NCBI GenBank assembly: GCA_033439255.1 | Contig: CM065885.1 | Span: 186,001 to 250,000, forward strand | Length of the DNA stretch: 64,000 bases | From: Hericium rajendrae | Taxonomy: Eukaryota > Basidiomycota > Agaricomycetes > Russulales > Hericiaceae | Direction: 5' to 3' | Shown here: piece by piece, positions 1,515-60,521 of the stretch | How positions within the stretch are numbered: the stretch's first letter is position 1 | How the letters are laid out: each line of letters starts with the position of its first letter | The notes under the pieces: generated by a model | What the model was told of the DNA's origin: nothing | What the model saw: the letters and a program-made list of their open reading frames with translations, nothing else | Databases searched by the model: none | Program-made: the position numbers and the translations under genes

Positions 1515-2024
1515 ATCGCCCATCGCGCCACGACACGACGCTATACGACACAACGTTCCCTTTTGGTCGCGGTCCTGCGTGACGCGAAAGCGGATCTGGG
1601 ACTCGAGGGGATTGTGTTTGACGTGGTGCGTAAGGGTGCGTAATGATCGCGCGTTGGGAGCGTGGGCTCTGTTCGCCGGAATGGGCCAAGGGCCATCGTT
1701 CGAAGTTCCGACGCGCTTGACCCTGCTTGACCCCAGACTCCTTATCATCTGGCAGATGGCAGGGAAGCACTCCGGAATTGACGATCATCTATCTCATGAA
1801 ACCTAGCAGGCTGCACCGTGGGTAGACCCCTCGAAGTCGGGACATCCCTAGCAGCTCTATCTACCCGATCCGAATCGGAGCCTCTGCTGTCTAGACCTCC
1901 TTCTCCTCCAGTGTTGCGTCAACTGAAGACCCCTTTCAATATTATCCTATGATATCGGTGGCTGCATCGACGAAGATATGAGTGAGTGAAACACTCTTCT
2001 ACTCGTCCTTGAGTTGACTCTAAC

Positions 2025-5000
2025 ATGGACGTACGGTATCACAGGCGACTTCCAGCGACTAGCATGCCCTTGTACCGAGAAATTTCATTCGTGAGCATGA
2101 GTACTGCCGTTGCACGCCAACCTGTCCAACCCATTCTGCCTTGCAGCGATTTGGGAGAAGTCATTAGCAATGAAGGAGCAGACGTGTTTCCGAGCACCCG
2201 CGATGATGACGCCAGAATGACAGAGGCAATCGAGTACCCTTCTCGCCTCGACCCAAAGAACTTTAGATTCACCCTCATCATAGTCCCGTAAGTAGCCTCT
2301 CATCTTCCTGCCTGAACAGATCACAAATGTCCGACAGATGCACGAATCACCCCGACATCAAAGTCAGATACGTTATGTGCGTGGTGAACCTGGAGCAGGC
2401 TATTGCAACTCGGAAGGCGTCCCTTCGTAAAGCAGCATCCGATCCTTCCGAACTTGCACTCCATATGAGCAGCCTAGCCCGCTTCCGCCATCTATTTTTT
2501 CTGGCGAACAGCCGAAACGATTTTTTGGTTTATGCTATCAGCGGACTCGGCAGATGTCTTCGGACGCTGCAGATGGACGACTACCACAAAGCCATGTACA
2601 AAGCGGAAATGGGTGCCTATCATCATTCTTCCTTCCACCACTTCGGCGCTGGTCTGGAGTCGATCTCAGACATGAAAAATGCAATTCAATGTCTGAAGGA
2701 TGCCATTAAGCTTCTACCGGAGGGCTCTCCAGCGGCTCTTGCGGGCTATCTCGACCGCGAGTTAGCCTCGTTGCTCTTGTGCCATTTCCGCAGCAATCCA
2801 CATAAAGACGTCCTAGAAGATGCTGCCATCGCGAGGCTCCGTAGGCGAGTGGATCTGCCCATGGACCTTCGATGCCGAAGCTCCAGCCTCGAGATCTTGA
2901 CAGATATTCTGATGTCACGCTTTGAGTCCAACCAGTCGGCGGTTGACCTCGACGATGCCATATCTTACCATGAGAAAGCCCTGCGCCTCCTACCTGATAT
3001 CGAGATGGACGACGATGGAACCATCAAATGCACGGATACGAAGTCGGAGATCGCGCTGGACGCTCTCACTTCCTACAGCACATGGCTCTGCATGCGCTTC
3101 GGTCAAACAGGAACACTGAAGTCAAAGGACCTTGAGACTGCGACGTATTGGGCAGAATTTATCACAAAGCGGATTTCGAAGGACTGCTCCCAACGAACGA
3201 AGCGGAGAAGGCAGAACTGCCTCGTCAACTGTCTCATGCAGCGCTATCAAGCAGATGGCCAGGTTATAGATATCTCTCGTGCTGTAAACCTTATCACCGA
3301 GTGGTCGGATCTGAGCTATGCCGACAGCATTGGGCAACTACTCCTGATTGCATTCGAACGAACACAGGACAACGGATTCATCGATGGCGCGGTCCAATTC
3401 CTCGAGAAAGCACTCACCTATAATCAGATGCGTCGAAACGTATTAGGCAACTTTGAGGCCATGATCAGGAGACATCTCGGGCGGAGCGAGGTTGCTACCA
3501 TCCACGAAGTTATGGATCGAGAGCCTGGGCTGTTCTCGGCCTATGTGCACCGCCCTGGCGCCATCGCAATACCTCGCCTGAACATCGATTGGGCCTATGT
3601 CAGTGCACAGCATTACGCCCTTGGACGAGCTCTTACTCTGAAGTACGAGCACTCTCAAGCGCGACGAGAAGACGATATCAACAAAGCACTGCAGAGTCTC
3701 GAGAGGGCAATGTCTATGGCCCCTCCGACTAGCCATTTCTACCCACAGTATCTCATCTCCGCAGGGACGGCCTACAGAGTGCGCTTCGAAAAGTCGGGTG
3801 GTAACTATGATGATATCATAACCGCCGTGGATCGACAGCAACGCGCACTGGATCATATCAATCAATTCCCTCAGTGTCAACCATTCCGTGTACAGGCCTT
3901 GCACAATCTTGCCCATTCTTCTCTCAGATTAGCCTTGTACGACCGTAGCGCATTCAAGTTTACGAAGGCTTTGGAGCTGTTTGAAAAAGCTGTCAATGCT
4001 GAATCCGGATTTCTTCACGACCGGTTGAACGCTGCTGTTGATTGGGCGAGACTTGCCCACGATATTAGTACCAACCCTCCTCAATTCTTACAGGAGCAGT
4101 TACAGGAGAAGGAGCTGTTAAGGCATGCGCTCCAGGGATATAGGCATTCAGTTTCACTCCTCGTCCAGGCTACAATGATGGGCGTCACCACCTCTTCTCG
4201 ACTTACAGAGCTCTACACGCTCCCCAAAAGTCTTGCAAGCGATGCAGCCGCATGTGCGTTTCGCCTCGCCGTAGTGGATCCCGTGGACTCGCAGACCCAT
4301 ATCGGTAAGGCGGTCGAGCTGCTGGACCAGGGTCGGGCCATCCTGTGGTCTCAAGCTGCGCAGCTGCGTCAGGATATGAAGCGTCTAGAGGACGAGGATC
4401 CGGCCCTCGCTGTCGCCCTTATGACAATTCTACAGAGACAATTCCGCGCATCGCTGGTCGGTGACTCCTATGCCCATTCCGAGCAGGCTATCCAGAAAGA
4501 TGTGTCCCTTTTGGAAATGGGCCTCTCAGCCGTCCGTCGAATCAAAGGCTTCAGCGATTTTCTATCCCCGGTGCCCTTCAAGGGCTTCGCCACGCCGCCG
4601 ATGAAGCACCTATCATCATAGTCAACACAAGCGACTATGGCTGCGACGCTTTAATCGTCATTCCTGAGGGTGACCTCCAGGTGATTCCTTTGGAAGATCT
4701 CCGGAAGAGCGACATAGATAATGACGTATCTGACTTGCTGGGGATACTTGAACGCGATCACAAAGATCGACGGCGCATCTTCCCGCGGATAATGGAGAGG
4801 CTATGGGTTAACTTGTGCGAGCCTATCCTCAACTCTAACGCCTTCGAGAAAGCAGGTCTGAAGAAGGATTCGAATAACCCTGTCCAGGTGCGCTGGTGCC
4901 CCACGGGAAAGCTCGCCTTCCTGCCCATCCATGCAGCGTGCCCTCGAAACGGTGCCAGGGGCACGCTCGACTACATTGTCTCGTCCTATATCACGACGTT

Positions 5001-5685
5001 GTCTACTGTACTCAGATCAGAAAAAACGCACAAACGACCGCAGACCTCTCTCAACACCAGACCCACGTATCCGCACATCCTAGCGGTTTGTCATGCGGGA
5101 AGTTCAGATCAGGGTTATTCCCCTCTCACCTACGTCGAGAAGGAGATCAACCTCGTGCGAAAATACGCAGAGGGACGGCATGTCACCGTCGTTCCCCTCG
5201 ACCAAGTCACTAGACCAAACGTCCTGACTGAACTCGAGCATTCTGATTGGGTCCACTTCGCCTGCCACGGCACGCAGAATGTCACAAGTCCCATGGAGAG
5301 TGCTTTGCTGCTGCAGGATGGACAGATGCCCATCTCCTACATGATCAGAGACAAGAGCTTTTCGGGAGAGTTCGCAATGCTTCTCGCCTGCGAGACTGCA
5401 ATGGGCTCACCGGGTCTCTCGGACGAGGCCATCCATGTCGCCGCAGCATTGCATTTCGCCGGCTTCAAAAGTATCGTGGCGACAATGTGGAAGATTCGGG
5501 ACGACAAAGGGGTGGAGGTGGCGGATTCGGTGTATGACTACATCTTCAACCAGGGGCCTGAGTTCCCGAGAATGTTGGCGCCAGGAGAGGCCGCGCGCGC
5601 GCTGAGACATGCACAGCTCAAGCTGCGAGCCGAGAAGAAGCTGGAGCTGCAGTACTGGGCACCGTTCATACATTATGGCCTGTGA
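2025..5685 (+). CDS. TPR-CHAT caspase-like protein, copy 1 (one base missing)
   Basis: Paralogue of the gene at 22,387-25,955 and very similar to it along its length. Exon 1 runs from 2025 (or from the ATG at 2097, which aligns with the start of copy 2) to 2287. A 50-base GT..AG intron covers 2288-2337. Exon 2 runs 2338-5685. Most of the protein is helical, repetitive TPR-like sequence. The C-terminal CHAT domain carries the His of FACHGTQ (near 5265) and the Cys of LLACETAMG (near 5392), the expected His-Cys dyad of caspase-like CHAT peptidases. The frame is lost around 4579-4585: copy 2 has one more base there, and the exon sum (3539 from 2097) is one short of a multiple of three. As written, the first 4.6 kb encodes the TPR part and stops. 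The CHAT part is open in the next frame. This is either a young pseudogene or a consensus error. The substrate is unknown. Confidence 0.85.
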
Positions 5686-5814
5686 TTCATGACTACTATG
5701 TAGCTGTGTAGATGTGAGTGAATTTTATATTGTGGAGTCCATAAATACATATGATAGGCATCTTGATATCGAGGTATACATCGACCGCGGGGCCTGTTTC
5801 AAGTTCTCCAACCA

Positions 5815-8910: not shown

Positions 8911-10064
8911 AATGGCCGTACATCACTTAGCAGGTCGATGTTTTGTAAGGTCAGATCATATAGGGAGAGCGAGGTGCGGGAAGGACAACTATCTTTTGTT
9001 CAAGGTCTGCATAGAAGATTAGCTTAGTGATTAGGGGCTGCCAGTACTTGCTTGACGGTGAGGAAGATGAAATGTAGCAAGCGTCAACCAGGCGCCCGCA
9101 GGACGCAGGCGCGTCGTTGACGCGTTTCGTCACGTCACGGTCTCTCCACGGTCTAACTTCCATCTCGTTCCTTGCATACTTCAGAATATTTCTAGTATCC
9201 CTTTCATCTTGAAGGGGTCCAATCACGTATCTCGACTGTCAGATAGACTGATTGACAAGGACGGGTGTCTACCATGAATAATTTCAAAGCTTGCGGACGA
9301 CGCTTAGACTGCCAAGCAGTGACTGTCTCTCGAACGCAATATTGATGGACGAGTCGAGTACTGCGTAGATGAGATGTATCTGACTCACCATATGGGTTTC
9401 TAGCTGATTTGAAGGTTTCGAGCATCGATTTTCTGGAAATTGTCTGCGTTCCAGCAACACCATGGGACGCACAAATCCTGTCAGATGGCTGGATTCTTGT
9501 AGGCCTTTCACTGCGTGATAGCGGTGCGTGCCTTCACTTCTCCCGCAGATCAGACGCAGAAGACGTCGATGGCGGCGCACGGTGCCTTCCCGTTCAGAGT
9601 GCCGCGCGCATCTTCCAGCCTTATCATTCTGCAGGCATCGATATCGTATTAATCCAGTGACAGTAAGCGATTGATGAGCAACAAAGGGATCTATGATAGA
9701 AGGCCTTCGCGCATATTCTTACCTATGCTCTGTGGGTCCGCGGATCGCTTCGGGAGCTCAGACTCTCATAAGTATCGAGTGCGACTGGCCGCTAAACATC
9801 TGCTCGCAGCCCCGCTCCCCGTTCTTTTTCGCACTCCAAAATCCTCTCAGCGCCATGTGCCCCTTCTGCTCCAGCGGTCCAGTGCGCCTATTCTCATTTT
9901 TTGACGTCGCACAGCCACTCATACTGACCATACTGATCTCTCAGACTTTGCACGTCCCAGTCGGTGCGCAGCAGCGACCGCAGGGAAAGACCTTCAAGAG
10001 TCTGCGCCTTTCACCGTCAGAGTTTACGCGCCAAGTACCTGTGCGTTTGTCGCCGGGGGAGTCG
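8911..10064. other. Intergenic stretch
   Basis: About 1.1 kb with no supported gene. An open frame from 9693 runs in frame into the gene starting at 10,065, but its first part reads like non-coding DNA, so it is more likely leader or promoter. Other frames of 60-98 codons are not recognised. Confidence 0.5.
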
Positions 10065-11726
10065 ATGCTCGGAAACGACGCCATGGCTCCGAAGCTAAGG
10101 ATTATCGCCGAGAATGAGGAGGCGAAGGAGGTTCTGCGCCTGTCGAGCGGCGCCGCCGGGCAAGACTGGGTCGATGTGCCTTATAGCCAGCTCGATTCTA
10201 TCCTTTGGATCATGCAAAGGCTCGAAAAGGTCATCAGAATTCCTATGGGTAGCTGGGTACGCGATCTCGGACTGTTTGATTAAGAATCCGCATGTCATGC
10301 GCTGATGGTCATCTGCAGTTCTTGACCGGTGGTGGAGTCATCTTCTCCCCAGGCCATCTCGTCATGAGCTTGGAGCATTTCAAGCGTCGTGGAAACAAGC
10401 CTATCGGTGGGCCTCGCGCGCGTTTATTTTCATGTATACATAGACATTGAGTTGTTCATTGTAGAAGCCGTTCTCCTCCCCGCGTGGGATGTCCATGCTT
10501 TTTCCGCTACGAACCTCAAGACGCATGTCTGGAAGTACGTCCAGCTCGACCCTCCCTCCGCGGTGACGCCCGGAACCAGCGCTCGCACCCGAGCTGAGAT
10601 GCTATTCCCGCTGATCGACACCGTCGATTCACCTCACTGGCCCGCATACATCACTCACCGCCAGAACGCGGACCGGTACATTGCGAAGAAGATGGAAGAG
10701 ATGAAAGGCGAAGACATGGATCCGTACTGGCGTATGACGAAAGACGCCATCATGGATGCGCTCCTTGGTGAGGTAGACTTGGAGGACGACGACTGCGAGA
10801 GGATCGCAGATGCGATCTCCGTCCTCGAATGCGAAGTCTCGATCGACGGGAACTACGAGGTAAAGCCTCACAGCGCACAGCGCATCCAATCCATTCTGAC
10901 CCTCGTTCGCAGGTCCGCGATGCCGAGGTGCTCGTACGCATCCACTCCCTCGTCGCGCCGCGTTCCGTCGATGTCCACTTCAGCTTCCACCACCGCATGC
11001 GCCAGTACACCGTCGAGTGGGCCTACGCGCTTGGTTTCCGCATCAACAGCGCGCCCGCGCCGCCGCCGCGCACCTTCCCGTACGCAACGCACGACGTCGA
11101 CCAGCAGCACGCCGCGCGCGGCTGGCGGTCCTTCGGCTGGTTCCACCTCGACAAGCGCCGCGCGGAGCACAGCGCGTGCCCCGTGTCCGCGCGCGATCTG
11201 CAGGAGGTGCACGACGCGCTGTTCGGCGAGGAGGAAGCGGGCCGGATCGGCGACCGCGTGAGCCTGCTCGGCACCGCGCGCCTGCTGCTCGCCAGCGTGG
11301 GCATGAATTTCGCAGTCGCGCTGGACGAGGAAGACCGCGACGAGAACGGGATGGGCTGCAGCCGCCACCGGGATGCCAGTCGATTCTGGATGTCGATAGC
11401 GACAAGCCTGGTATCAGCGCGGCGCATCTAAGGAAGATTTGTGGGATTGAGCCGCTGGAAGATGATGGTAGGCGTGGCATGGCAGACTCCTTATCTTCCG
11501 CTCACGTTTTATTTGCTGCTCTGCAGATCCGGCAGACTTAACGCAGGAGCAGATGACCGAGCCTATGGACGAATCCGACGATGAAGGGCCCCGGGGTATC
11601 GACGAAGAAGTCAATCCCATGATCGAGGCATTTGCAGCGGCGATGAGGGAGGTAGCCCGGGAGCAACAGCAGACCCGCAGAGGTCGGGGTGGTTCGCAGC
11701 ATGGCGACGAGTGCGTCGTTGCGTAA
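10065..11726 (+). CDS. Unknown-family protein, copy 1 (one base missing)
   Basis: I do not recognise the family. Five exons fit: 10065-10256, 10319-10406, 10465-10859, 10913-11467 and 11527-11726, with introns of 53-62 bases. They sum to 1430 bases, one short of 477 codons. Comparison with copy 2 (49,440-50,790, opposite strand) puts the missing base in a G run near 11,352. The predicted protein of about 476 residues has no signal peptide or membrane segment that I can see. It has an acidic C-terminal tail rich in Asp, Glu and Gln. The best conserved block between the copies is around VRDAEVLVRIHSLVAPRSVD and HFSFHHRMRQ. The start at 10,065 is the first ATG in the conserved frame; 10,083 is an alternative. 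A base lost here would remove the last quarter of the protein. Confidence 0.6.
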
Positions 11727-12252
11727 TGGAAGGAGAAGTTCGAAAACTCTTGCCCCAGAAATAATTGTACTAACATGAAGCATATTGAAGACGTTGCGGT
11801 GACTTGACGAAACCAGGACTCTTGCAAGTGTTTTGCGGCGAGTCTCCGAGCTCTTTTTCACTTCCGTACTCGGAACAGAATGCTCTCGTAGTGCTAAGGG
11901 TGCTCACTACTACCCGGCACCGAAGTTTTGAAACTTGAGTACGTTTCTTGAGATTATCCCTTTTTCCAAAACTTCGTCAAGAGCCTCTTTTTCACCAACT
12001 CTATTGATCACTTCGGTCTGTGAGGTTGTAAGGGCAATACAATACATAGTGTAGAAGCGTAAAAGTACACAAGCGCCCACAGACGCGTCGCGTCGTTCCT
12101 TTCAGGCGCCCGAGCCGTTTCGTCACGTCACTGTCACCAGCAGTCACTAGTTCAATCTTCGTCTGCTCTTGACTCTATACCGCAGACACCTCCACGCAAC
12201 CGTCTCTCTCGCCTTCTATTTTTCAGTAAAGCAGATCTCAGTAAATCTAAGG
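11727..12252. other. Intergenic stretch
   Basis: Holds the 3' flank of the unknown gene and the promoter of the ATL gene. No open frame of interest. Nothing else seen. Confidence 0.5.
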
Positions 12253-13503: not shown

Positions 13504-15402
13504 CTGACAGAAAGGCAGACTTGCAGGGTCTCGTATCTCTGATCCAACAAGCGACGAACGATGCTATCTCTGCCTACGAGGACTCTGGTACCGAGTTGCC
13601 CTCGCTCGACGTGCCTTCGGAGCCTCCAACCAACATCATCGCGCTTAGAAAGGCACTTCGGGTCCTCGAGGGCGCATGCTTCCAGCTATGCACAACGCTG
13701 GCGCCGCCAGAGGCAACAGTGTTCACAGTGAGTCGTCTCTACGAGTTAATTGCGGCATCCGGCTGACGAGGCCATCGCCAGCGCTCCATCCAATGCCTCG
13801 ACGTCGGATGTCTACGCGTCGCCGTGACCGCGAAAATCCCAGACATCCTCGCTGCTCACCCCGAGGGTCTGCACGTCTCCGAAATCGCTAAGAAGACGAA
13901 CATGGAACCAGGCAAACTGTCGAAAGTCCTCCGCAGCCTGGCGCTTCACCACTGTTTCCGCGAAGGTGCGTCTGTAGCTCCTTGTTCCGTCCGCCAGTGC
14001 CTCATCGCGTTGGGCAGTTGCCGCGGATACGTACACGAACAACCGCCTATCTGCTACGCTTCTCGAGGCGAATCCATTCAGCGCGCTAATCGAATGGGTC
14101 ACGACGAATGTGAACCGATACGTCTCGTCGAATATCTACGACACGCTCGTCGATCCTGTCTACGGTCCTTCGTACGATGCGAACAGGACGGCGTGGTCGT
14201 ACGGCACGAGGCGCGAGATGCCCGAGGCCTCCATCTATGAGTGGCTCACACAGCAGGTGAGTTTCTCGAGGTTAGAGCTCGCGTGTACTGACGGGCGTTA
14301 CACAGACCGAATCAGGCCAGGTGAGCGTTCTCAGGTTTTCTATGAATCATCGTTTGATGCGTGCCGACGAAGATGTTCAACCGTGCTATGGTCGGACTGG
14401 GTCAACTCACCGATGGCGACGTCGTCGTTAAGGGTCGGACTGCTCCTCAAATCGTTCTCCTGCCGCTCGGCTAACGTTTTTTCCAGCATTTCCGTGGCGC
14501 GATCTGCCCGCCGGCGCGACTGTTACTGATGTGGGAGGGGGATATGGGACAGTTTCCATCCAGCTCGCGAAGCAATATCCTCATCTGCAACTCACCGTGC
14601 AAGATCTACCTACAGTAGTCGAGCAGGCTCGTCAGGTATGTATGATGGTCTCTACCAACTCTATAGCAACAACTTTCCTTTACAGTTCTGGAACACGAAC
14701 TATCCCGCCGCTGTAACCGAGAAACGCATCAACTTCGCGCCTCTGGACTTCTTGAACGAGAGCCCAGTGAAAGAGCAAGACATATATTACGTTTGTGAAC
14801 CCTTCTTGGTAGCCCTGGTAGTTATGCTGATTGGTGTTTTCTATCATCGCAGCTCCGACAAATTATCCACAACTGGCCCGCCGACGCGTGCGTCACGATC
14901 CTGAAGAACATCGCGAAGGTCCTGAAACCGGAGAGCAGGATTCTTATCCGTGAGAAACAAACAGCGTCGCATATATTGCCCTCTCTGACCTTGTGTTCCT
15001 TCCTTCCTAGACGATTACGTCCTGCAACCGAATTTCTCTGGTGAGGAAGCCCGTGAACTCGCCGCAGGGTCCGGAGTCGACGTGGTCGGTATCGCGAAGC
15101 ATCAGCCCATCGACTAGCATCACTTACCAGCCTTTCTCGGTCACAGGCCCCGAAACCGCTCCTCCCGAACTACGGGTACGGGAACTCTCGAGCGTACACG
15201 GAAGACGTAAGCATGCTCACACTGACGAACGCCGGCGAGCGGACGCTGGACGAATTCCTCGCAATCGGGTAAGGCGCCCTCGCATCTGCCCTGCAGCGGT
15301 GGCTCACGCATAGCGCCTCGCAGGACCGCCGCCGGGCTCCGCTTCGTCAAGCTGTGGGATTTCGCGGAGACGGCGTTGATCGAGCTCGCTGCGTCGCAGT
15401 AG
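13500..15402 (+). CDS. SAM-dependent O-methyltransferase (COMT-like), 449 aa
   Basis: Eleven exons fit: 13500-13727, 13782-13965, 14018-14256, 14306-14320, 14373-14433, 14487-14635, 14686-14790, 14853-14949, 15011-15081, 15147-15268 and 15324-15402. The sum is 1350 bases, 450 codons. The fourth exon is only 15 bases. The N-terminal half is the winged-helix dimerisation domain (VSEIAKKTNMEPGKLSKVLR). The C-terminal half is a Rossmann methyltransferase with the SAM motif TVTDVGGGYGTVS, then LQLTVQDLPTVVEQA. The catalytic His sits in LRQIIHNWPAD, followed by PKPLLPNYGYG. The layout is that of plant-type caffeate/flavonoid O-methyltransferases, common in basidiomycete secondary metabolism. The substrate cannot be told, and no biosynthetic core enzyme is nearby. 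Weak points are the donor at 15082 (GTGGTC) and the AAG acceptor at 14370-14372. Confidence 0.85.
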
Positions 15403-16305
15403 AGAACGCTTGGTCTGTATTGGGCCTTATTTATGGAATTGCTCAAATCGCATTTTTTTGCCTTCGAGCCTGGGATGTTTGTGAGATCTGCATCTGGTGT
15501 CTTGACGTTCATTGGCTACGTTTCTTGGTTGAAGACTTTTGGAAGAGGGAAGTGAGACGTTCGGTGGAGGACACAGTGCGTCAATTGGAAAGTGCTTAGA
15601 TATCTATGTTCCTCTCGTGCTAATAACTCAGCATTTTCCCACCTGATCAGAGCCCTTGTAGGCTGGTCTACGAGTATCGCAGCTGCAGCAACCTGCACTG
15701 TGTAATATACATATCGGGCGTCAGTACACACATTCCAGACGATTCGTATGAAGCACTGTAAATGTGCACTTCACTTGTCAAGCTTCGTTTCTCGTCTTTG
15801 CGACACCAGTCATGATGAACAAAGCTAAGGCGTGTCTACAAGCTCTCCTTAGCTACAGGCTGCGAGCTACCCAATCTTGACGAGCCCTCTCGCGCTCCCG
15901 ACAATTCACCTGCGCTGATCAATACTCGTCGCATCCCGGATGGTGCTTGTTTCCAGTCATGCGGTAAACGTGGCTCGAATCACGGCCGCGTTGCCTGTTA
16001 TTGATGAGTTCGTGTTATATAAGGACTGACGCAAGCTTGCGCTTCATAAAAGTGGAGATTAGCTTACGGCGAGACATCGTAGTCGAATTCGCTGCATTGA
16101 AATAACGTTTCATCAGAACTCCTGCAAGCGGTGAAGCACCTTCCACAGGTCTGCTCGTGGCATAAAGCGAAATGGTATTCCGTGAACTATATGGATGCTA
16201 TGTACAACTAGAAGTCCGGAGAAATACAAAGTGGCAGCAATTACAGCGAGACAAAGTGTAGATAGGATACAAAGATGGAAACAGAATGTCGGTTTGTCGG
16301 CCGTG
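15403..16305. other. Intergenic stretch between convergent genes
   Basis: Contains the 3' ends of the methyltransferase and AAA-A genes. A TATATAAGG-like word lies near 16016, but no gene starts downstream of it. No coding sequence recognised. Confidence 0.5.
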
Positions 16306-18802
16306 TCACCGCCTCGCGAACCGCAAGTACGCCTTCAACCCGCCAAGAACAACTGCCGTCGTGCATAACGCCGCCGCACTGCTCACGACATACGGATTCA
16401 AGTCTTGCACCCATTGTGGATTGACGAGCTTCCTGAATATTGATTTTGCACCTGCACAGCAGCAAACGCCGATCAGCCATCCAACAGCCAGTGCAGAAGG
16501 AAATTGCGCTTACCTATATGACCCTGCTTTTCCGAGAACGTCACAACGCGCAGGATATCCTCCGTCCTAAGCGTGCGATCATTATCATGCGCGGCGATCG
16601 CAGACGCGATCTTGACGATGTTCTTGATCTCGCGGCCGTTCAGAGACAGCGCGCGCAGGAACTGCATGTCCTTCTTGACGAGGTGGCGGCGCTCGTCCTC
16701 CGTCATGTCCGTCTTCTTCAGGAACGCGATCCAGAGGCGCTCGCGCGCGTCCGCGCTGAGCGAGTCGTACACCATCGACACGTCGATGCGCGACTTCATC
16801 GCGTCGTCGAAGACGCTCACGCGGTTCGTCGTCAGGAAGAGGATGCCTGGGTAGTATCTGTGGGCGGCTTTGTCAGCGGTGCGGGTGGGAGGTGGGAGCG
16901 GACGCACTCGAGCTTGCGCAGGAAGACGGCGACCATGGCGTTGCGGCTCATGTCGTGGATGTCGCGCCGCTCGAGGTAGACGTCGGCTTCGTCGATGAGC
17001 ACGACGGCTTTCCACCGGTGGGCAAGCGCGAAGACTTTGCTCAGCGCCTCCTCGAGGTCGAGCGCGTACGTGCCGAGATCACTGGAGCCGACGACGTAGA
17101 GCGGACTTCGGGACACTGAGACATGGTTATGAGCGATTTCAAAGTATAAAACGCGCTCTGCTTACCATCGCTGATCGCCTCTGCGGTCAGCGTCTTTCCG
17201 ACGCCGGGTGGTCCTGTACGCAGAGTCGATGAGAGGCCCGCATGTGAACACTCTCAGTAGACGTACCATGCAAGTTGAATATCAATCCCAGCCCCTTGCT
17301 CTCAACAAAGTCGTCGAACTTTCTCGCTGACACCCCGGGCCTCGCGTTTCCATCGCCGTCATCGCTCCTGGCGCCAGTATGCTGCTCAACGAGCGACTTG
17401 ACCAGGTTCTTGTTCTCTTCCTCCATGTCCAGGTCTTCGAACACGTTATGGCTCCACTGGATGTCCTCGACGCAATCGACGCTGAATGCAACTGACGTCG
17501 CCATGCGCTGTCAGATCTACGTTTTTCGTGGACTGGGTAATACTTACGCCACTCGCGGTCTCCCAGCGTGTAGCCATACAAACGCGGGGACATCAGGAAG
17601 AAATCGTCGTCGTTGGGCTCTTTCCTGGAATCCGGAGTGACTACTTCACCGTCGAGGTCGTACCGTAGACTAGGAGTATGGCCATGACGCGAGTAGCGGT
17701 CGAACATTTCTAGAGCAATTCATCAGCGACATAGGGATGCAAGACATGCAAACACGCACCTCCGTCAATCATAATTCGTGATTTTGTCTGACGCGCCACA
17801 GGTCAGTATCAAGAAAATAAACGCAGATAAAACACGGACCATAATCTTGCGGTACCGGTCGTCGTCCTCGACGGTGTACGCAATGTCGTCGTACCATTTG
17901 TGCTGCCAGTCCTTCAGCGTCCAGCGCTTCCTGCCGCGCGCGATCAGCTCCTCCTTCTTCTTCCTGTGCTCGTCGAGCGCGAGCTGGTCGAACGGGTACG
18001 CGACGAGATCCAAGATGCGCTTCGCCCCCACAAAGTGCGGGATCGTCAGCTCGATCTCGGCGAGGCCGGGCATGTCGCCCTCGACGGCGACGAACTCGCA
18101 GTTGAGGATCCAGCGCAGCGGCTGGTCGGACGAGCGCTCGTGGATCTCGAGCGAGAGGAGCCGCACGGCCCACGGCTTGCCGGTCATCTTGTCGTACGTG
18201 AGGAGGATCATGCCCGGGACGAGCACGCTCCAGATGAGGTGGAAGGTCACGACCTGCGCGGCCTTGAGCGACTCGAGCTCCTGCAGCCGCTCGCGGTACT
18301 CGTGTGGATGAACTTGAGGAAGAAGCGGACGTGCTCGATGATCTGCTGCTCCTCCTCGGTCTTTTCGGCAAGTTTCTCCAACGACTCAACGTATTCTGTA
18401 AATTGTGTCGTAAAGGCCATTAACTCGTCAGGTTCGAACTGGCATCCGACCGTCAGTGTTTGGCCAGGCAAAATTGGCTTTGCACACCTTCAGCGGCTTC
18501 CTCTCCCATGCAACATCTCTGCGCCCCTTCATCACCTCTTTCGCCGCGCGGATGAATGCGGGCGAGTCGAGCTGGATCATCTCGTCGATGAGGTGGTATC
18601 CATCCTTGTCGCCGGGCACGAACCGGCGGATGAGCGAGAACGCGAAGACCTCCTCGGACTCGTCCTTCGTATCGTCCTTCGCCTCGAGCTCGATGTCGTC
18701 GAGGAATAGGTACTTGCCCTTGTCGTCGTCCCACTTCTGGCGGATGCGCTTCACGTCAAGCGTGAGCGTGAGCGGATGACCGTGGTTGCTAACGAGGGCC
18801 AT
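16306..18802 (-). CDS. AAA+ ATPase with C-terminal membrane segment, AAA-A (one base missing)
   Basis: Nine exons: 18802-18488, 18438-17840, 17787-17760 (28 bases), 17709-17548, 17491-17267, 17213-17166, 17115-16908, 16857-16514 and 16451-16306. The sum is 2075 bases, one short of 692 codons. Comparison with AAA-B places the missing base in exon 2 near 18,304 (FLKFI..HEYRERLQE is read across a frame change). The N-terminal half resembles the DUF7025 region of fungal AAA ATPases. The AAA core has Walker A PPGVGKT (split by the intron at 17214-17266), an intact Walker B VVLIDEADVYLE, sensor LFLTTNR and SRIDVS. The last exon encodes a hydrophobic segment (AAALCTTAVVLGGL) followed by basic residues, so a C-terminal membrane anchor is likely. 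It is transcribed divergently from AAA-B across 1.07 kb. Client and membrane are unknown. Confidence 0.8.
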
Positions 18803-19869
18803 GGTCGGTGGATGCGAAGATCAGCGGCTGTTCCCCGCGCGCAGAGTGTATTGGTGAGACGGAGGCGCTGCAGGCGGCCTGTGCGACTTGGGGAGGACGA
18901 ACGGCTGGATGGGACAAGGCAGCGCGGCGCTGGACTGGCAATGAGGCAATGCGGGCGCCAGAACTCCAGAATTTACGGAAAGGCACTTTGATAGCATGTT
19001 AGATCGTTGCTCCGCTGCTACGCGTACCTTCGACAACTTGGTACAAGGAATCAAGCTTCCGCTAAGTAGATTCTGTTACCCTTTGCCTGGACATCTGTGG
19101 ACCACTTTACGTTCCCTGATAGAAGGAAAGACAGACGAGATTTACCGTAATATTTTTGACGGATGGAGGCGTGGTTGCCAAGTTCCTGCCATGTTTCCTC
19201 CTTGTGGTCATCGATGTTAGTCCGGAGGTAAATTGACCATCAGTTGCATCATGTTGCATCACGTAAGCGTAGTCCAACGCTCTTCCTCTTCTTCTCAATT
19301 GACTGACGATTGTGTTCAGCAAGTCTTCAGCGCCTCAATACCGACTATTCGCATACGTACACAAGGTTTAACGACAAAGGATGTATCAAACGAGTGTGCT
19401 CTACTGAAATCTGGGAAGGATTTACAACTTTGTTTACCTCCGGAACGCCAACGTAACACTGGGGAGACCATTGATACCCCTCTTTGACGCCCTCCGGTGA
19501 GTTCCTTATTATGCGAGAAGGGGATAGCAGGGCATGCGGTGCTCCGAAGATCAAATTCGAATTGTACCCGAGCACGCCGCCCTGCAGTCGCCCTGCCCAT
19601 CGAAGACGAGTCCGTCTGCTTTCCGAGATACCGCTTTCCATTGATTGCTTGACAAGTTCCACCGACAGACCCCTGCCAGCCTGATGGCGATCGGCACTGG
19701 TCGACCGACATGATTGAGCGCCTCGAGCACACGCAATGAGGCACTGATGCTGTGGTCGGCGTGTGTCTCACAGCACCACATTACGACGGCGCGCCTTCGA
19801 CATTTTTAGATTCAATGCAGGCAGTTCACAAGCGGTAGACTACTTACTTGACAGCAGTAATTTTGCAGG
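18803..19869. promoter_or_regulatory. Divergent intergenic region of the AAA pair
   Basis: The only sequence between the two start codons, so it must hold both promoters. Open frames of 60-150 codons inside are not recognised. TTTTGCAG directly before the AAA-B ATG could also be a splice acceptor, so an extra upstream exon of AAA-B is possible. Confidence 0.5.
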
Positions 19870-22301
19870 ATGTTGATGGCTTACGACGATACCACTCCCT
19901 CCATCGCGCGCGTGAAGGCGCTCTCCGACCTGGAGGCGGGCGAGGGCGCAAACGACCCGCCGGCCGAGTCCAATGAGCCCGTCCTCGATCTCGAGTTCAA
20001 GCGCGTGAAGCAGCAGTGGAACGAGGCGCGCCAGAAGTACGATGACCGCATCGAGCTCGAGGAGACCTTCACATCCGCCTCCGACGCCGGTTATGCATTC
20101 TCGCTCGTGCGCATGCTCAAGCCAAATACCCATATCCCCTATGTCCAGATACACGTTCGGAGTCGAGACTTCATCACTGCGGCGCAGGATGTCATGGCAG
20201 GAAAGCGGAATGTCGTCTGGCAGACCATCCCGGTGAAGGTAATGGTCGCAGTGCTCCGCCTTGCCTTCCGCATTACTGACTTGTAGGCCTCAGTTCGAGG
20301 CACTGGAGCTGCTCGCGTTCCTCCCCCAATTCGTCAAAGACTTAGAGAAGCGGCAAAGCAAGCCCATCGAGGAAGGCCCGAACATCGAGGAGCACAACCG
20401 GGTCATCTACCATCTCGAGTACTTTGTCAACTTCCTGCAACATGAGTACAGCTCCCACGTCGAAACTTTCAACTCCCTCCGCGCATCGACATATATCATC
20501 TTCGATTCCCTGTGGGCCCTACTGCTCCCCGGCATGACGCTCATGACCAAGTGCAAAGTCACTGGTGTCCAGCGCTTGGTCCGCCTCATCACGATGAGCA
20601 AGCGCCAGGCGCGGTGGGACTCACCCGAGCAGTGGGCCCTCCTGGTCGAATATGTCGACATGGTCTGTGGCCGAGTGGGACTTATAGAAGAGGAACTGAT
20701 CCAAGACAAATTCTCCGGTGCGAAGCCCATCGTGGAGTTGGTCGCGTATCCTTTCGAGGAGCCCCTCGGCGACGAGAAGCCCCTGGTCGAGGATTACAAG
20801 GATGTCAAGGCTACGCTGGTCAAGCGAGGGCGCAACCGCTCGAAGCTGGAGGAGGAGTCCTATATGTGGTACGACGGAGAAGGTTTCTACAAGGACGGAG
20901 ATAGTTATCGCAAGCGTCCAGTACGTATTTATTGGATTCTTCGCAGCGTTCCGCACATTGACATTCTGCGCAGGTCCAATCGCGCATAGTGATTGATCGC
21001 GGTAAGCAGTATCGTCTACGGGGACAGTCTCCAACATCTCATGAACCCGCGGACAGATATGTACGACCAGCACTCGGGCCACTCGACTCCGAATCTTACG
21101 CACGACTTGGACCACGAGAAGATCTGTCCCGAATCACGCACAACACTCACGGACGACGAGTACGCACTGATGGCTCCGCGAGTCTACGGCTTCGCGCTCG
21201 AGAAAAAACAATGGTGTGCGTCGCAGTCTCCATAATCCGCGGCGACCTCTGCTGACCACGCCCGGCCACAGATCAATTCTCTGTGAACGACATATACCCC
21301 ATCAACTGGGATTTGGAGCTCTTCGGCGACCTCAACCTTGACGAGGAGTACAAGACGCTGCTGAAGGTCATGGTCGGCGCGTGCTACCCGGAGATGGAAG
21401 ACACGGAGGGCATCATCTCGAGCGCCCGGTTCGACGACTTCCTGTGGGGCAAGGGCAAGGGGTTCATATGCAATCTGCACGGTGCGCCGGCTCGATCGCG
21501 AGTCTTTGCGCATTCTGACCACGTTGACAGGGCCGCCTGGCGTCGGGAAGTCGCTGACGATCGAGGCGCTCAGCGAGGTCACGAAGAACGTGCTCTATGT
21601 CGTTGGCTGTGGCGACCTCGGCATCGACGCGGGCAACATCGAGAAGGAGCTGTCGACCATCTTCAAGCTTGCAGTCCGCTGGCGCGCCATCGTTCTCATC
21701 CACGCGGCCGACGTATACTTAGAAAGCCCCGACATTCGAGATACGGAGCGCAATGCCGTCGAATCCGTTTTCATGCGAAAGCTGGAGTACTACCCCGGCG
21801 TCGTATTTCTGACCACGAACCGCGACACGGTATTCGAGGGCGGCATCCGGTCGCGGATCGACCTGTCGCTCTTCTACTACCAGCCCACCGTAGAAGCGCG
21901 CGAGCGGCTGTGGGCGATGTTCCTCAAGCGGACCAACATGTCGAAGGAGGAACGGCAGATCTTCAACGAGAGGTACATGGCGGAAGCGCGCGAGCTGTGC
22001 CTCAACGGCCGCGAGATCAAGAGCATCGTCAAGGTGGCCAAGACGTCCGCAAAGCACCTGCACCGCGAGGTTCAAGCTGGGGATATCATGAGCGTCATCC
22101 ACTTCTTGCAGACACAGGGACAAATCGGTGCGTGTATCGTAGCTTCTGCTGTCCCGCCGTTGCTGAGTTTCGATGCCAGGTGACGGGTTTGTTGCCGAAC
22201 CGAAAGTCGATGCGCCAGTCACGACTTCTAACTGGAAGCTCTTCGCTCACGCCGCATGTGGTGCTGCCTTCGGTCTCGCTGTGTCCCTTCTCGCTCTGTA
22301 G
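19870..22301 (+). CDS. AAA+ family protein with degenerate Walker B, AAA-B, 703 aa
   Basis: Seven exons: 19870-20238, 20294-20920, 20974-21001 (28 bases), 21057-21215, 21272-21481, 21531-22127 and 22180-22301. The sum is 2112 bases, 704 codons, fully open. It is a paralogue of AAA-A with most introns at the same places. The N-terminal region (about residues 1-340) is DUF7025-like (TYIIFDSLWALLLPGM). Walker A GPPGVGKS lies near residue 465 and sensor FLTTNRD near 555. Where AAA-A and the family have LIDEAD, this protein reads LIHAAD (bases 21698-21715), so both the Mg-binding Asp and the catalytic Glu are lost. ATP binding may remain but hydrolysis is unlikely. The last exon adds a hydrophobic segment (AACGAAFGLAVSLLAL) that ends the protein, a possible tail anchor. 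An ATG at 19876 is an alternative start. Confidence 0.85.
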
Positions 22302-22386
22302 CCTTTGTCCCGATGAGGTGACTAGATCTGTCGTGTGTATATATACGGACGCTACTGTACAATATCCACTGCCATGTAGTCACGAA

Positions 22387-25300
22387 TTACAGACCATAAT
22401 GTATAAACGGTGCCCAGTACTGTGGCTTCAAATTCTCGCTTCGCAGCTTAAGCTGGGTATGTCTCAGCGCGCGCGCCGCCTCTCCTGGCGCCAGCATCCT
22501 CGGGAACTTCGGCCCCTGGTTGAAGATGTAGCCGTACACCGAGTCCGCCACCTCTTCTCCCTTATCGTCCCGGATCTTCCACATCGTCGCCACGATGCTC
22601 TTGAAGCCCGCGAAGTGCAGCGCCGCGGCGACATGGATGGCCTCGTCGGAGAGACCGGGCGAGCCCATGGCCGTCTCGCACGCGAGGAGCATCGCAAACT
22701 CGCCGGAGAAGCTCTTGTCCCCGATCATGGAGATCGGCATGCGCCCGTCCTGCAACAGCAGCGCGCTCTCCATGGGATTCGTGAAGTTCTGCGTGCCGTG
22801 ACAGGCGAAGTGGACCCAGTCCGAGCGCTCGAGCTCGCTGAGGACGTGGGAGCTGGTGGCCTGCTCGAAGGGGAGGACATTGACGTGCTTCCCGCCTGCG
22901 TGCTTGCGCACAAGATTGATCTCGTTCTGCACGTGGGTGAGAGGCTCGTAGCCTGGATGCGAGGTCCCCGAATGACAGACCGCGAGAACGCGGGGATATG
23001 TCGAGTCAACAGGGTACGACGGTCGCCGGTGTGTTTCTTGTGATCGGAGTACGGTAGACAGCGTGGTGATGTAGGAAGAGATGACATAGTCGAGCATGCC
23101 TGCGGTGCCATTTCGAAGGCACGCTGCATGAATAGGTAGAAAGGCCAGCTTTCCTGTGGGGCACCAGCGCACCTGGGCAGGGTTATTCACATCCCTCCTC
23201 AGACCTGCTTTCTTGAACGCGTCAGAGTTGAGAATAGGCTCGCACAAATTGACCCATAACCCTTCCATTATGTGCGGGAAGATATGCCGCCGATCTTTAG
23301 GATCGTGCTTCAGTATCCTGAGCAAGTCCGACACATCATGATCTATGTCACTCTTCCGCAGGTCCTTTAGATGAATTACATGAAGGTCCCCTTCGGGAAG
23401 GACGATCAATGCATCGCAACGATGGTCACTTGTGTTCACGATAACGATAGGTGCTTCATCTGCGGCACGGCGAAGCCTTTCGAAGGGCACTGGGGACAGA
23501 AAATCGCTGAAGCCCTCGATCCGACGGACATCCGAGAGACGATCTCTCCAGCGGGTGACGGCGCTCTGTGTCGCTCGCCCGGAATGATCGTAGGAGTCAC
23601 CGTCCAGCGATGCACGGAACTGGTCCCGCAGGATAGCCGCAAGATCGGCCGCGAGCTCAGCGTCTTCGTGCTCTAGACGCTTGATATCCTGACGCAGTTG
23701 TGCAGCTTGAGACCACAGGATGGCCCGACCTTGGTCCAGCAGCTCGACCGCCTTACCGATATGGGCCTGTGCGTTCTCCGGATCCACTTCGGCGAGGCGA
23801 AAGGCACATGCAGCTGCATCGCTTGCAAGACTCCTAGGCACAGTATATAATTGTGCAAGACGGGAAGAGGTCGTGATGCCCATCATGGTGGCTTGCACAA
23901 GAAGTGAAATGGAGTGCTCGTATCCTTTGAGTGCGGAGGTTAACAGCTCCTTCTCCTGTAAGAATGGGAAAGCCTTGGTATTATGAACGAGCGTTGCCCA
24001 ATCAAGAGCCGCGCTCAACCGGTCGTGAACAAACCCATATTCAGCATTGACAGCCTTCTCGAGCAGCTCCAAAGCCGTTGCGAACTCGGAAGCATTACAG
24101 TCGAACGAGGCTAGCCTGAGGGATGAATGTGCAAGACTCCGCAGGGCCTGCACGCGGAAAGGCTGGAACCGGGAGAACTTGTCGATACTATTAAGTGCGC
24201 GGCGCTGAAGAATGACGGCTCTGGTGATATCCTCCCGCTTGTTGCCCGACTTGTCGAAACGGACCCGGTAGGCCGTCCCTGCGGAGACGAGATACTGTTG
24301 GTGAAGATGGCTAGTGGACGGTGCCATGGAAATTGCCCTTTCGTGACTCCGCAATGCCTTCTTGATAATGTCATCTCGTTGCAGCTCGGAATGTTCGTAT
24401 TTCAAAGTGAGAGCTCGTCCCAGGGCGTCTTGCTGGGCACTGACGTAGACCCAATCGATGTTCAGACGAGGTATTGCGATAGCACCAGGGCGGCGCACGT
24501 AGGCTGAAAAGAGCCGAGGCTCTCGCTCCATAACCTCGTGGATAGCAGCAACCTCGCTCCGCCCGAGATGTCTCTTGCTCATGGCCTCGAAGTTGCCGAA
24601 GACATTCTGACGTTTCTGGCTATAGGAAAGTGCCTCCTTGAGGAATTGGACCGCGCCGTCGACGAAGTCTTTGACCCGTGATCGTTCAAACGCGATGAGG
24701 AGTAGTCGTCCGATACTGTAGGCATACCTCGGGTCCGACCGTTCGGTGATCAAACGTACTGCACGATAGATATCCTCGATGGGCCCGTCCGCTTGATAGC
24801 GCTGCATGAGACAGTTGACGAGGCAGTTCTCCCGTCTTCGCTTCGTTCGTTGAGAGCAGTCCTTCGGAATCCGCTTTGTAACGAATTCCGCCCAATACAT
24901 AGCAGTTTCGAGGTCCGTCGACTTCAATGCTCCTGTCTGACCGAAGCGTGTGCAGAGAAATGTGCTGTAGGAGGTGAGGGCATCCAATGTCATCTCCGAC
25001 TTCGTATCCGTGCATTTGATGACGCCGTCGTCGTCCATTTCGATATCAGGTAGGAGGCGCAAGACTTTCTCGTGGTAAGCTATGGCATCATCGAGGTCAA
25101 CCGCCGACTGGTTAGACTCGAAGCGGGACATCAGGATATCTGTCAAGATCTCGAGACTGGAGCTTCGGCACCGGAGGTCCATGGGCAGATCCACTCGCTC
25201 ACGGAGCCTTGCAATGGCAGCATCTTCGAGGACGTCTTTATGTGAATCGCTGCGGAACTGGCACAACAGCAACGAGGCTAACTCGCGGTCGAGATAGCTG

Positions 25301-25955
25301 GCAAAGGCCGTTGGAGAGTCCTCTGGCAGAAGTTTGATGGCATCCTTCAGACATTGAATCGCGTCTGTCATGTCCGAGATCGACTCGAGACCAGCGCCGA
25401 AGTGGTGGAAAGCAGAATGATGATAGACACCCATTTCCGCCATATACATGGCTTTGTGGTAGTCGTCCATCTGCAGCGTCCGAAGACATCTGTCGAGTCC
25501 GCTGGTAGCATAAACCAGAAATTCGTTTCGGCTGGTAACCAGGAAGAGTAGATGGCGGAAGCGAGCTAGGCTGCTCATGTGCAGGGCGAGTTCGGAAGGT
25601 TCGGATGCTGCTTTACGAAGGGACTCTTTCCGAGTTGCAATAGCCTGCTCCAGGTTCACCGCGCACATGACGTATCGGACTTTGACGTCTAAGTGCTTCG
25701 TGCATCTGTTGGATATTCGTGATCTGTTCGGATAGGATGATGATGAGAGGCTACTTACGGGACTATGATGAGGGTGAGTCTAAAGTTCTTCGGGTCGAGA
25801 CGAGAAGGGTACTCGATTGCCTCCGTCATCCTGGCGTCATCATCACAGGTATTCGGAAACACGTCTGCTCCTTCATCGCTAACGATTTCTCCCAAATCGC
25901 TGCGAAGTAGGACAGGTTGAGAAAGCTGACATGCAGCGACAGAGGTCATGCTCAC
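22387..25955 (-). CDS. TPR-CHAT caspase-like protein, copy 2, 1171 aa
   Basis: Two exons, 25955-25759 and 25705-22387, with a 53-base intron at 25706-25758. The sum of 3516 bases is 1172 codons, with no break. About 900 residues of TPR-like helical repeats come first (for example ALELLEKAVNAEYGF). The C-terminal CHAT domain has the His of FACHGTQ near residue 1035 and the Cys of LLACETAMG near residue 1075, the catalytic dyad of this caspase-like clan. CHAT stands for caspase HetF associated with TPRs; in bacteria such proteins act as signal-triggered proteases. The roles of the expanded mushroom copies are unknown. In front of the chosen start, an ATG further up meets a stop after four codons, which is why 25955 was chosen. 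The gene ends 85 bases from the end of AAA-B. Confidence 0.9.
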
Positions 25956-27572
25956 GTATGAAGTTTCTCAGTACAAGGACATGCAAATCGCTGGAAGTCG
26001 CCTGCGATATAACACGTTCAATTCAGATTACTCAAGGAGGGGCGGAAGGGCGCCCTACTCACTCATCTCGTCTGCCGCGCCGTCACGGATATCCCAGAAT
26101 AACTCTCAAAGGACCTAAGTTTCGAGGCGGATCAGGTCCAGGTAACAGCCGAGGCCTCAAGTCAGATCGAGGAAGAAAAAAGACCAGAGATATGTCCAGA
26201 ATTCGGAGGTTTCTGTCCACAGCGTGGCTGCAGATGCTCAAAAGACGAGCAGTCACGAATTGAAAGTGCTTCCCCGCCGCCCGTCAGGGAATATTTTCGG
26301 TCAAGCGCGTCTGGACGAAGGATGGCCCTGGGCCTCGCGTTAGGCTGAGTAGATAACTCGTCAATCCTCTGCACTAAAAGGCGACGGCGCAACTCACCAG
26401 TATTAGTGGAGCCTTGAGGATTCGCGCAGACACTGCACAGCAGGGCAGGTACACAGCCGTTGCAGAGGCACATTGTATGTCCATGACCTCGATCATCGGG
26501 AAGACGCCGGGCGCGGAAGTCGTCAGAGATCAAATGAGATATTGCATATGAAGGACGGTCCGGGGGATTCCTGCCTCGCGACGACGAAGTGAATGGCGAT
26601 GATTCCAGCAAGCGCCGAACCAGCGCCCAGCGGAATCAGTTTACGGCTCCCCGATGACGAGAGCCATCAGTACTGATTTTCGCGATGGGAAGGGGCAGCA
26701 TGGACGCCATCAATTTTATCTATCATGAGCGTCGTTGCAGGTTGTTGCACGGGTAGGGTTCGACTGAGACCATGTTGTTGATTCCAGTCAGACAAGATGG
26801 GAAACAAAAAGAGTCTATTGACTGTGACGTGTGACATGTGATCACAACAGAAGTGGACTTGCAGATGACCGGTTCAACATAAGTTTATCCTTCATTTGGG
26901 CGACAAGAATACCATGTCAGCATGCCTTGTAATCTGTCCATGGACGGAAGCGCGAAGGACCCATGGAGCAAGAGACAAGAAGAGAAACATGCTCACAACA
27001 CCGGAGAGGAACAATGGAGATCCAGCACAATGGAGGAGTCGCACCTGTTTCACGCACCTCTGTCGAGTCTCGACCGTAGACCAATTCTTGCGCGGCGGTT
27101 CGAGCATTGTAGTCATGCCCAACAGCAAGCTCAAGATTCCGCCTCATCATTGAGGTCATGCACTGTTGTCCAATACTGTTCAAATCACTAGTAGCCCCCT
27201 CCAGGACGAATGAGCCCCATTTTGGCGAGTAAAGATGGATCATTGTCCGTTACCGCACGAATCACTCACGTTTATGTATATACGGTGAGACGTTGTAGGA
27301 CGCATCCCAGACAGTGCGGCGCCTTGACGAGTTTGACTGAGCATCCAGGGATGATGCCGATGACATCCTGACGTGGCGCTCAAATGTTAAACCGGAAAAT
27401 GAAAATCGAGAACGGAGATGGATGGCAGAAATCATTTGGCTCGATGCATCCTACTCATCGCTGCTGTCGATGACCATATACAACTGATAACTATCCATTA
27501 GAGTAGACTGCAATACCAAAATACACTTTGACGAAATCTCTAAACTGTACATATAGAAAAATACCGTAAGTA
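25956..27572. other. Intergenic stretch
   Basis: Begins with sequence conserved with the leader of CHAT-1 (to about 26,010). A 149-codon frame on the minus strand at 26162-26611 has a few Cys residues but no family resemblance. The remaining kilobase shows no supported gene. Confidence 0.5.
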
Positions 27573-45946: not shown

Positions 45947-48749
<2,803 letters not shown>

Positions 48750-49439
48750 AGCGGTGGCGGCTGATGTCTGATCGACGTTGCGGCTGTAAGTCACCAGCCT
48801 CGCTACAAGACCTGTGGGAGATCATGGATACGAGGACGCACAGAACTATGGCGAGCATACCTTGAAGCGAGGATACAGCTGGAGGGAAGAGATGAGGAGG
48901 AGAGACGCTGAGCGCCGGGAAGGTGAGGGTGAGACGGTGATGGAGTAAGCGTGTGCAGCGCCCACCGATATTATTTTGATCTCGGCCACTAGCCGATCTT
49001 ATCTCTCTCGTTACTACTTCGTTCGTTCACAACACTTTCGATGTACTTTTACAGTACGTACTGTATTTCCCTCACATGCTCACAGCGCCAATCTGTCAGA
49101 CGCATGCAGTCGATGTGAAGCTGCACGAGCTCGGCGGATCCAGTGCACCACGGTGCTCAGAGCCGAAGTGGGTTTTAGAGCTGGTAGTAAAGAGGCTCTT
49201 GACGAAGCTTTGGAGAAAGGCATAATCCCAAACAACGTAGTTAAGTCTCAAAATTAGGGCGTCGGATAGCAGTGAGTGCCCCTAATACGATAGGAGGAAT
49301 CCGTACACACCGTGGGATGCATATTCGCGCGAGGTATGATCTCGTCTAGCCATCGCAACGTTCCTTCCTTCTTGAATATGCGTCGTATTAGTGCAACCAT
49401 TCTCGAGTAAGAGTACTTACTTTTGCTTTCATTAAGTAA
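48750..49439. other. Intergenic stretch (rsp5 promoter side)
   Basis: Contains the rsp5 promoter. An A/G-rich patch lies at 48,880-48,950 and the tail of the pseudogene follows. No other gene recognised. Confidence 0.5.
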
Positions 49440-50790: not shown

Positions 50791-51171
50791 CCGACTCCCG
50801 GTGCGACAAATGCGCATATACATGGTGCGTGAACTCTGCCGGCGAAAGACGCAGACCCTGGAAGGTCTCAAGAGTACTGCAATGCAATGCGAAGAACGGG
50901 GAGCGGGGATGCGAACAGACTTTGAACAGCCTGTCACGGTTCCTGGTTCCGATAGGACCAGGTCTTCAAATCATCAGTTTTCCTTTTAGGGTAATGCGAA
51001 CTTTTCTACCGTTTATGGAAATGAGGCTGTGCGACCGCAATTGAGCGTGACTTCGTTTTGTGTGTACGTCTTTGTATTCGACCTCCTGTTGGCCTTGACG
51101 GGCAAGCAACTCTGGAACGGTCGTTTCGGCTCTTAACGCGAACTTTTCTATTCTCAACCTTCATCGCTCCA
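50791..51171. other. Junction of pseudogene flank and Helitron
   Basis: The left end of the Helitron must lie in or near here. GCGAACTTTTCTA occurs at 50,998 and again at 51,139, which may be part of the element's terminal region or its promoter. The exact 5'-TC end was not identified. Confidence 0.4.
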
Positions 51172-59956: not shown

Positions 59957-60521
59957 AGTGTGTGTAGGCGAATATCTGGGTTGAGGAGCGGTCAGACCCA
60001 GGTTCTTTAAGAAGTTCAAGGCGACGCCAACCCCATGTGCTGTATCTCTAGCCAGGATCATAAGATCCTGTCCCATCTGTGTCCATGTGCGCTTATAGTA
60101 CTTGTAAGGTATGAGATGCGCAGTTGTACAGGTGCTCCTGGGTGGATTGACTACCTCCCTCAGGATTGGGACACCAAAACTATTCCCACTTAAGGGCAAT
60201 AGCCAACCGTTCACATCCCTTATAGCATCACGCCGGCTTCCCGACGCTTGCCTACTACAGTAGAGGGTGAAACAAGGACACGAGCCTTGACAGAGCCTCA
60301 TGTATCGTACGTATAGTAAGCGCACAGAGGGAGCACAGACAGGTGGACTCACGCCGACTTCTAGCATCGCCATGCTTCCGTCGTCGACGCTCGTGTAACC
60401 CCGAAGGGCGAGAGCACGATGGCAGTTCATTGAAGAACTCCAAGTGGGGCGCGAGTTGGGAAAGGTGACTCGCCTTGGTAAAACAGCAAAGGTAACTTCT
60501 TGTGTAGCAGGTGTTCAGGCA

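Follow-up and report, generated by a model that had tools for sequence, protein, structure and literature searches.

A divergently transcribed pair of DUF7025-AAA genes with one active-looking and one inactive member in Hericium rajendrae

Gene models and motifs at the locus

The window analysed here, a stretch of 64,000 nucleotides from Hericium rajendrae corresponding to bases 186001-250000 of contig C8, contains two genes for AAA proteins, AAA-A and AAA-B, which are divergently transcribed from one intergenic region (Table 1). AAA-A looks like an active ATPase and AAA-B an inactive one, and there is good support in this genome for treating such a pairing as a conserved genetic feature. AAA-A has nine exons on the minus strand and a GPPGVGKT Walker A motif, while AAA-B has seven exons, separated by six GT..AG introns of 49-56 nt, and 703 codons open without a stop. 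The domain order is DUF7025, AAA and fungal AAA lid (Pfam PF22942, PF00004 and PF23232), the lid of AAA-B being a sub-threshold match.

Domain scores were obtained for both proteins. AAA-B scores 49.6 bits for DUF7025 (Pfam cut-off 27) and 30.2 bits for PF00004 (cut-off 21.2), with PF23232 at 18.3 bits falling below its cut-off of 27. For AAA-A, whose frame is broken in exon 2, the piece of that exon after the break scores 60.3 bits for DUF7025, and the part of the protein after the break scores 60.7 bits for PF00004 and 29.6 bits for PF23232, all above the same cut-offs.

The Walker B aspartate binds magnesium and the Walker B glutamate is catalytic. Relative to the LIDEAD of the A-type, AAA-B carries histidine in place of this aspartate and alanine in place of the glutamate, retaining the final aspartate. 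The arginine of SRID, which we take to be the arginine finger, and GREIK, presumably sensor 2, are named by motif position. An earlier sequence-only reading had described AAA-B as fully open with LIHAAD, and AAA-A as keeping LIDEAD while being one base short in exon 2 at 18295-18315; both descriptions hold, the net -1 break lying inside that interval.

Table 1. Coordinates of the features of the AAA-A/AAA-B locus (window positions) and of the paralogues elsewhere in the genome (contig positions).
Feature	Position	Strand	Remarks
AAA-A gene	16306-18802	-	exons 18488-18802, 17840-18438, 17760-17787, 17548-17709, 17267-17491, 17166-17213, 16908-17115, 16514-16857, 16306-16451
AAA-A C-terminal hydrophobic stretch	16333-16389	-	
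AAA-A Walker B VLIDEAD	16982-17002	-	intact
Net -1 frame break, AAA-A exon 2	18302-18303	-	
Shared intergenic (divergent promoter) region	18803-19869	.	1067 bp between start codons
A-side conserved non-coding block	18932-18996	.	81.5% over 65 bp to DNA upstream of A2
B-side conserved non-coding block	19611-19688	.	71% to A2 upstream, 73% to B2 upstream
AAA-B gene	19870-22301	+	exons 19870-20238, 20294-20920, 20974-21001, 21057-21215, 21272-21481, 21531-22127, 22180-22301
AAA-B DUF7025 domain	20474-20758	+	Pfam
AAA-B Walker A GPPGVGKS	21481-21553	+	kept; intron 21482-21530 splits motif
AAA-B Walker B VLIHAAD	21692-21712	+	degenerate
AAA-B sensor 1 FLTTNR	21806-21823	+	kept
AAA-B arginine-finger region RSRID	21848-21862	+	kept; role presumed from motif position
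AAA-B GREIK (sensor-2 region)	22007-22021	+	kept; role presumed
AAA-B C-terminal hydrophobic stretch and stop	22242-22301	+	
A2	C8:96904-99406		spliced-alignment model
B2	C8:154970-157463		spliced-alignment model
A3 (L042)	C15:608653-611145		spliced-alignment model
A4	C15:575843-578372		spliced-alignment model

A six-member family with two subunit types

Searching the genome (46.8 Mb, 19 contigs) with the DUF7025 profile returned six loci, A, B, A2, B2, A3 and A4, and all six candidates were scored. The paralogues were modelled with a home-made spliced aligner, which places the outer ends only approximately for A2, A4 and B2: the start codon of A4 is not resolved, and the alignments of A2 and B2 end a few codons short of the stop. 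A and A2 share 74% identity, with 66% for A-A3, 48% for A-A4, 72% for B-B2 and 42% for A-B.

The two types are separated by their nucleotide-binding motifs. Walker B reads LIDEAD in A, A2, A3 and A4, LIHAAD in B and LIHGAD in B2, and Walker A reads GKT in all four A-types, GKS in B and GKA in B2, so that B2 has lost the Ser/Thr and departs from the GK[ST] pattern. Elsewhere the motifs are shared: none of the six members has lost the SRID arginine or GREIK, and sensor 1 is TTNR in A, A2, A3, B and B2 and TTSR in A4. Both A2 and A4 are open over their aligned length, B2 contains no stop and no frame break, and the lid PF23232 was matched in five of the six genes in the genome search, the exception being B.

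At least 16 loci with AAA-domain matches (24-30% identity) were found in prokaryote and viral collections, with no relatives in viral contigs among the matches listed. In the paper library searched, no paper turned up under DUF7025 combined with AAA or under the accessions and names of the family, and among the matches listed for fungal pseudo-ATPase pairs none was judged, from the listing, to be relevant.

Conservation of the divergent layout

Upstream of A2 the two conserved blocks of the intergenic region are found again, in unchanged order, and after them comes a truncated B-type start (L039; start codon at C8:96178, minus strand) with its promoter block; for the B-side block, identity between the A2 and B2 copies is 80% over 102 bp. 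Alignment of the promoter and start regions at the DNA level gives MFTAYTDTPPSED for the truncated copy against MLMAYDDTTPSIA in B, after which a gap and decay follow; it was not among the best 25 matches in a protein search of the flanks. Because both blocks and a truncated B-type start recur upstream of A2, the A/B pair was most likely duplicated as a pair, the second pair breaking up afterwards, and the divergent layout appears to be ancestral. No match to the intergenic blocks was found in the 1.5 kb upstream of A3 and A4, and an Rfam search over 15000-23000 gave nothing at gathering score.

Selective constraint on both lineages

Substitution rates were calculated by the Nei-Gojobori method with 300 bootstraps. 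Between B and B2, dS is 1.20 and dN 0.166, giving dN/dS of 0.138 (bootstrap 0.104-0.181) overall and 0.100 (0.056-0.161) in the AAA and lid part; the corresponding A-A2 values are 0.198 overall and 0.085 in the AAA part. The lineage with the dead Walker B is constrained at about the A-A2 level. Under neutrality since the B-B2 split, dS gives a rough expectation of about 51 stops in B, and none is seen.

In the AAA and lid part, the four A-types all agree at 104 columns. Both B-types keep the residue at 71 of these, the Walker A lysine and the SRID arginine included. Another 22 changed alike in B and B2, the Walker B aspartate (His in both) among them, and 11 changed with B and B2 differing; the Walker B glutamate and Walker A threonine positions differ between B and B2. 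In a parsimony count at sites usable with A-type outgroups, silent changes numbered 22 in B and 37 in B2, and replacements 37 and 43; this count is cruder, its site selection favours replacements, and no conclusion was rested on it. The A lineage is not relaxed: it has 78 silent changes to 54 replacements, compared with 85 to 116 in A2.

Given the open frames, the purifying selection and the retention of sensor 1, the arginine-finger region and GREIK, AAA-B is best described as a real pseudo-ATPase. The sequence-only reading had proposed, should the missing base be an assembly error, one active and one inactive member sharing a promoter region. In agreement with that proposal, a diverged paralogue also has a dead Walker B, both B-types are under purifying selection and the divergent promoter region is conserved.

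The frame break in AAA-A

The exon 2 break is the sole lesion in AAA-A, and both of its flanks align to the intact paralogue A2 right up to the break. An intron at this position was rejected, as coding conservation reaches the break from either side and the site is uninterrupted in the models of A2, A4, B and B2; inspection, which was not an exhaustive scan, revealed no GT..AG intron that would spare the conserved protein. Programmed -1 frameshifting in A and A3 is not favoured because breaks of the same sense occur in unrelated genes, and no classical slippery heptamer was recognised by eye in A or A3, no scan having been run.

Comparable breaks were found in three further genes. A3 lacks four bases in exon 2 (net -1), about 13 nt downstream of the position homologous to the break in A. 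The second CHAT gene of the window has a net -1 break near 4583; the rest of its frame is open over about 1,100 residues and 78% identical to the copy without a break. A further net -1 break, at ~1400-1406, falls in the conserved start of the AAA domain of L002, whose best matches mark it as an m-AAA protease gene. There the first frame matches residues 102-161 of FtsH chain 7wi4 (E 8.7e-5), and the next frame takes up 7wi4 at residue 155 and AFG3L2 (6nyy) at residue 43. Since the two frames meet within a few codons, there is no room for an intron. All four breaks are net -1, three of one base and one of four, although L002 was picked by eye from seven AAA control loci and the tally gives no unbiased rate.

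No nonsense codon is present in A, A3 or the CHAT copy, and in A about 29 stops would be expected under neutrality along its branch (a rough estimate) where none is seen. Because the breaks here and elsewhere are all net -1 and nonsense codons are absent, the break in A resembles a deletion error in the assembly and is probably a sequence error, as the sequence-only reading had allowed; one of the other affected genes encodes a conserved protease. A3, with four bases missing, may carry a real deletion. The accompanying suggestion that a real break would leave the locus with no ATPase activity at all is not supported when taken genome-wide, as A2 and A4 are open over their aligned length with LIDEAD even if the break in A is real; it is unlikely that the activity has been lost entirely. 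For this assembly, gene loss should not be concluded from single-base breaks without reads.

Several further loci were considered. At the Cdc48 locus the C-terminal tail presumably lies in another frame, as judged from an assumed terminal motif for which no PDB match was found; two putative breaks in the Yme1-like L007 were not counted. No breaks were noticed by eye, without a test, in L003, L005, L006 and L008, and a codon-usage model for breaks across the window did not recover the known break in A.

C-terminal stretches and structure models

A hydrophobic C-terminal stretch of moderate hydrophobicity is present in all six members despite their divergence. By hydrophobicity score only, this stretch is the best 19-mer (score 1.82-2.75) in five of the six, whereas in AAA-A the most hydrophobic 19-mer is internal, at residues 168-186. 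The earlier description of both proteins as ending in a single hydrophobic segment therefore holds only in part, the ends being hydrophobic but the terminal stretch of A not being its most hydrophobic one. Tail or membrane anchoring of the family is plausible, though weakly supported. AlphaFold single-domain models, made from the DUF7025 exon of B (aligned with the piece from A) and from the AAA exon of B, had mean pLDDT values of 40.6 and 43.3, too poor for a fold search.

Proposed mechanism and alternative explanations

The reading preferred here, with a probability of roughly 0.55, is that a single fungal AAA machine contains A as its active and B as its dedicated non-hydrolysing subunit type, the two most likely occurring together in one ring. 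A and B would represent two diverged DUF7025-AAA-lid subunit types, produced from a shared intergenic region, of which the A-types would hydrolyse ATP. B-types are not expected to do so because the magnesium-binding aspartate and the catalytic glutamate are gone, yet they would still fold as AAA modules, and B, having kept GKS, probably binds nucleotide. Because sensor 1 and the arginine-finger region are kept, B in a mixed ring could complete the active site of a neighbouring A by an arginine finger in trans. It could also hold the ring together and set the number of sites that fire, its own N-terminal half could carry substrate or adaptor contacts, and the possible C-terminal hydrophobic segment would put the complex on a membrane. 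We infer the mixed ring, a reasonable step from the analysis, together with the trans arginine finger and the membrane location. A broader and more tentative proposal is that of an uncharacterised fungal AAA machine with active and dedicated, long-conserved inactive subunits from one bidirectional gene pair, in which the inactive lineage may be losing its ATP site stepwise (HAAD/GKS in B, HGAD/GKA in B2) while the residues facing ring neighbours are kept.

Known systems offer partial precedents. LAP1, with no recognizable Walker A, supplies an arginine finger to Torsin, which has none of its own (PMC4358337); Msp1 hexamers in which up to half the subunits are dead retain ATPase activity (PMC12793716); and mutation of the Pex1 D2 Walker B leaves Pex6 activity (PMC9265785). 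On the strength of these examples, dead partners can activate their neighbours or be tolerated. LAP1/LULL1-Torsin resembles A/B in joining an active AAA protein to an AAA-fold partner that has no working ATP site and keeps an arginine finger, LAP1 also being membrane-linked; it differs in that B keeps GKS, A keeps its own arginine and an A/B ring is a proposal. Pex1/Pex6 are likewise two AAA paralogues with ATP sites of unequal importance, combined in one ring. They have two tandem AAA domains, an inactive D1 ring and a D2 ring that keeps Walker B, whereas A and B are predicted to have one AAA domain each, the whole B subunit being inactive. Msp1 is a single-ring, membrane-anchored AAA protein that tolerates dead subunits, and is likened to A/B; natural Msp1 is a homohexamer and its dead subunits are engineered.

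On the inactive side of a LAP1-Torsin kind of arrangement, B and B2 fit, having kept SRID, whose finger role is presumed from motif position, and lost Walker B. The active side does not, and this is the first of several observations that weigh against the mixed-ring proposal: all four A-types keep SRID and need no arginine from B, unlike Torsin. Nucleotide binding may be unimportant for what B-types do, given that B2 lacks the Walker A threonine. Nor is linkage to a partner required, as A2 and B2 now lie ~55.6 kb apart and no B-type match was found in the 2.6-2.9 kb flanks of A3 and A4. The hydrophobicity of the tails is only moderate, and random error does not explain why the breaks in A and A3 lie so close together (~13 nt; chance ~0.013). 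Dead subunits are also not always harmless, some arrangements of them in Msp1 failing to extract substrate (PMC12793716).

The separation of A2 from B2, the lack of a B-type match in the 2.6-2.9 kb flanks of A3 and A4 and the additional Walker A loss in B2 would suit B-types that are free-standing pseudo-ATPases, serving as decoy, scaffold or competitive regulator outside rings with A-types. This is unlikely, since both B-types keep the arginine-finger region and sensor 1, which are relevant to ring neighbours, and the divergent layout is retained in the A/B pair and traceable in its duplicate. A real break in A, which is present in the sequence and stands improbably close to that in A3, would make AAA-A a very young pseudogene, with B acting together with A2 or A4, or alone; this is less probable again, given a single lesion, the absence of the stops expected under neutrality and the net -1 breaks seen both in the m-AAA protease gene and in the CHAT copy, which has no nonsense codons. 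Decay of both B and B2, with the common histidine an inherited accident, would account for the missing catalytic residues in both, the differing second position (Ala, Gly) and the further Walker A loss in B2, but it is highly improbable against a dN/dS of this size, lowest in the AAA part, and frames free of stops and breaks in both.

If A and B do form active and non-hydrolysing subunits of one machine, they would give a first way into the function of the DUF7025 family. Work on dead subunits in single-domain AAA rings has used engineered ones, Msp1 being an example (PMC12793716). A natural single-domain pair with a catalytically dead partner, maintained by selection since duplication and joined through a common promoter region, would offer a simple setting in which to learn what such a subunit adds to an AAA ring.

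Genomic surroundings

The AAA pair is flanked by an inverted duplicate of a TPR-CHAT gene (1942-5696 and 22376-26102), 80.6% identical over 3.76 kb. The copy at 22387-25779 is open over 1130 aa, and the other is the one carrying the net -1 break. A second inverted duplicate lies at 9988-12024 and 49156-50868 with 74-78% identity, and no Pfam match was found in the two open frames tested there (10368-11258 and 49784-50638). A 470-aa frame at 46996-48405 (minus strand) contains three WW-domain stretches, with local repeats at 47266-47667.

Identical 463 bp direct repeats at 55190-55652 and 60534-60996 enclose a 1476-aa open frame (56084-60514, minus strand), which together look like a young LTR (long terminal repeat) retroelement. 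On one side of this element is a Helitron N-terminal frame (51600-55238) and on the other a PIF1-like helicase frame (60976-63561), an arrangement that resembles insertion into a Helitron. Across the genome, eight matches to the class II peroxidase extension domain were found, the best solved relatives of one being versatile peroxidases, and on these grounds the fungus is probably lignin-degrading.

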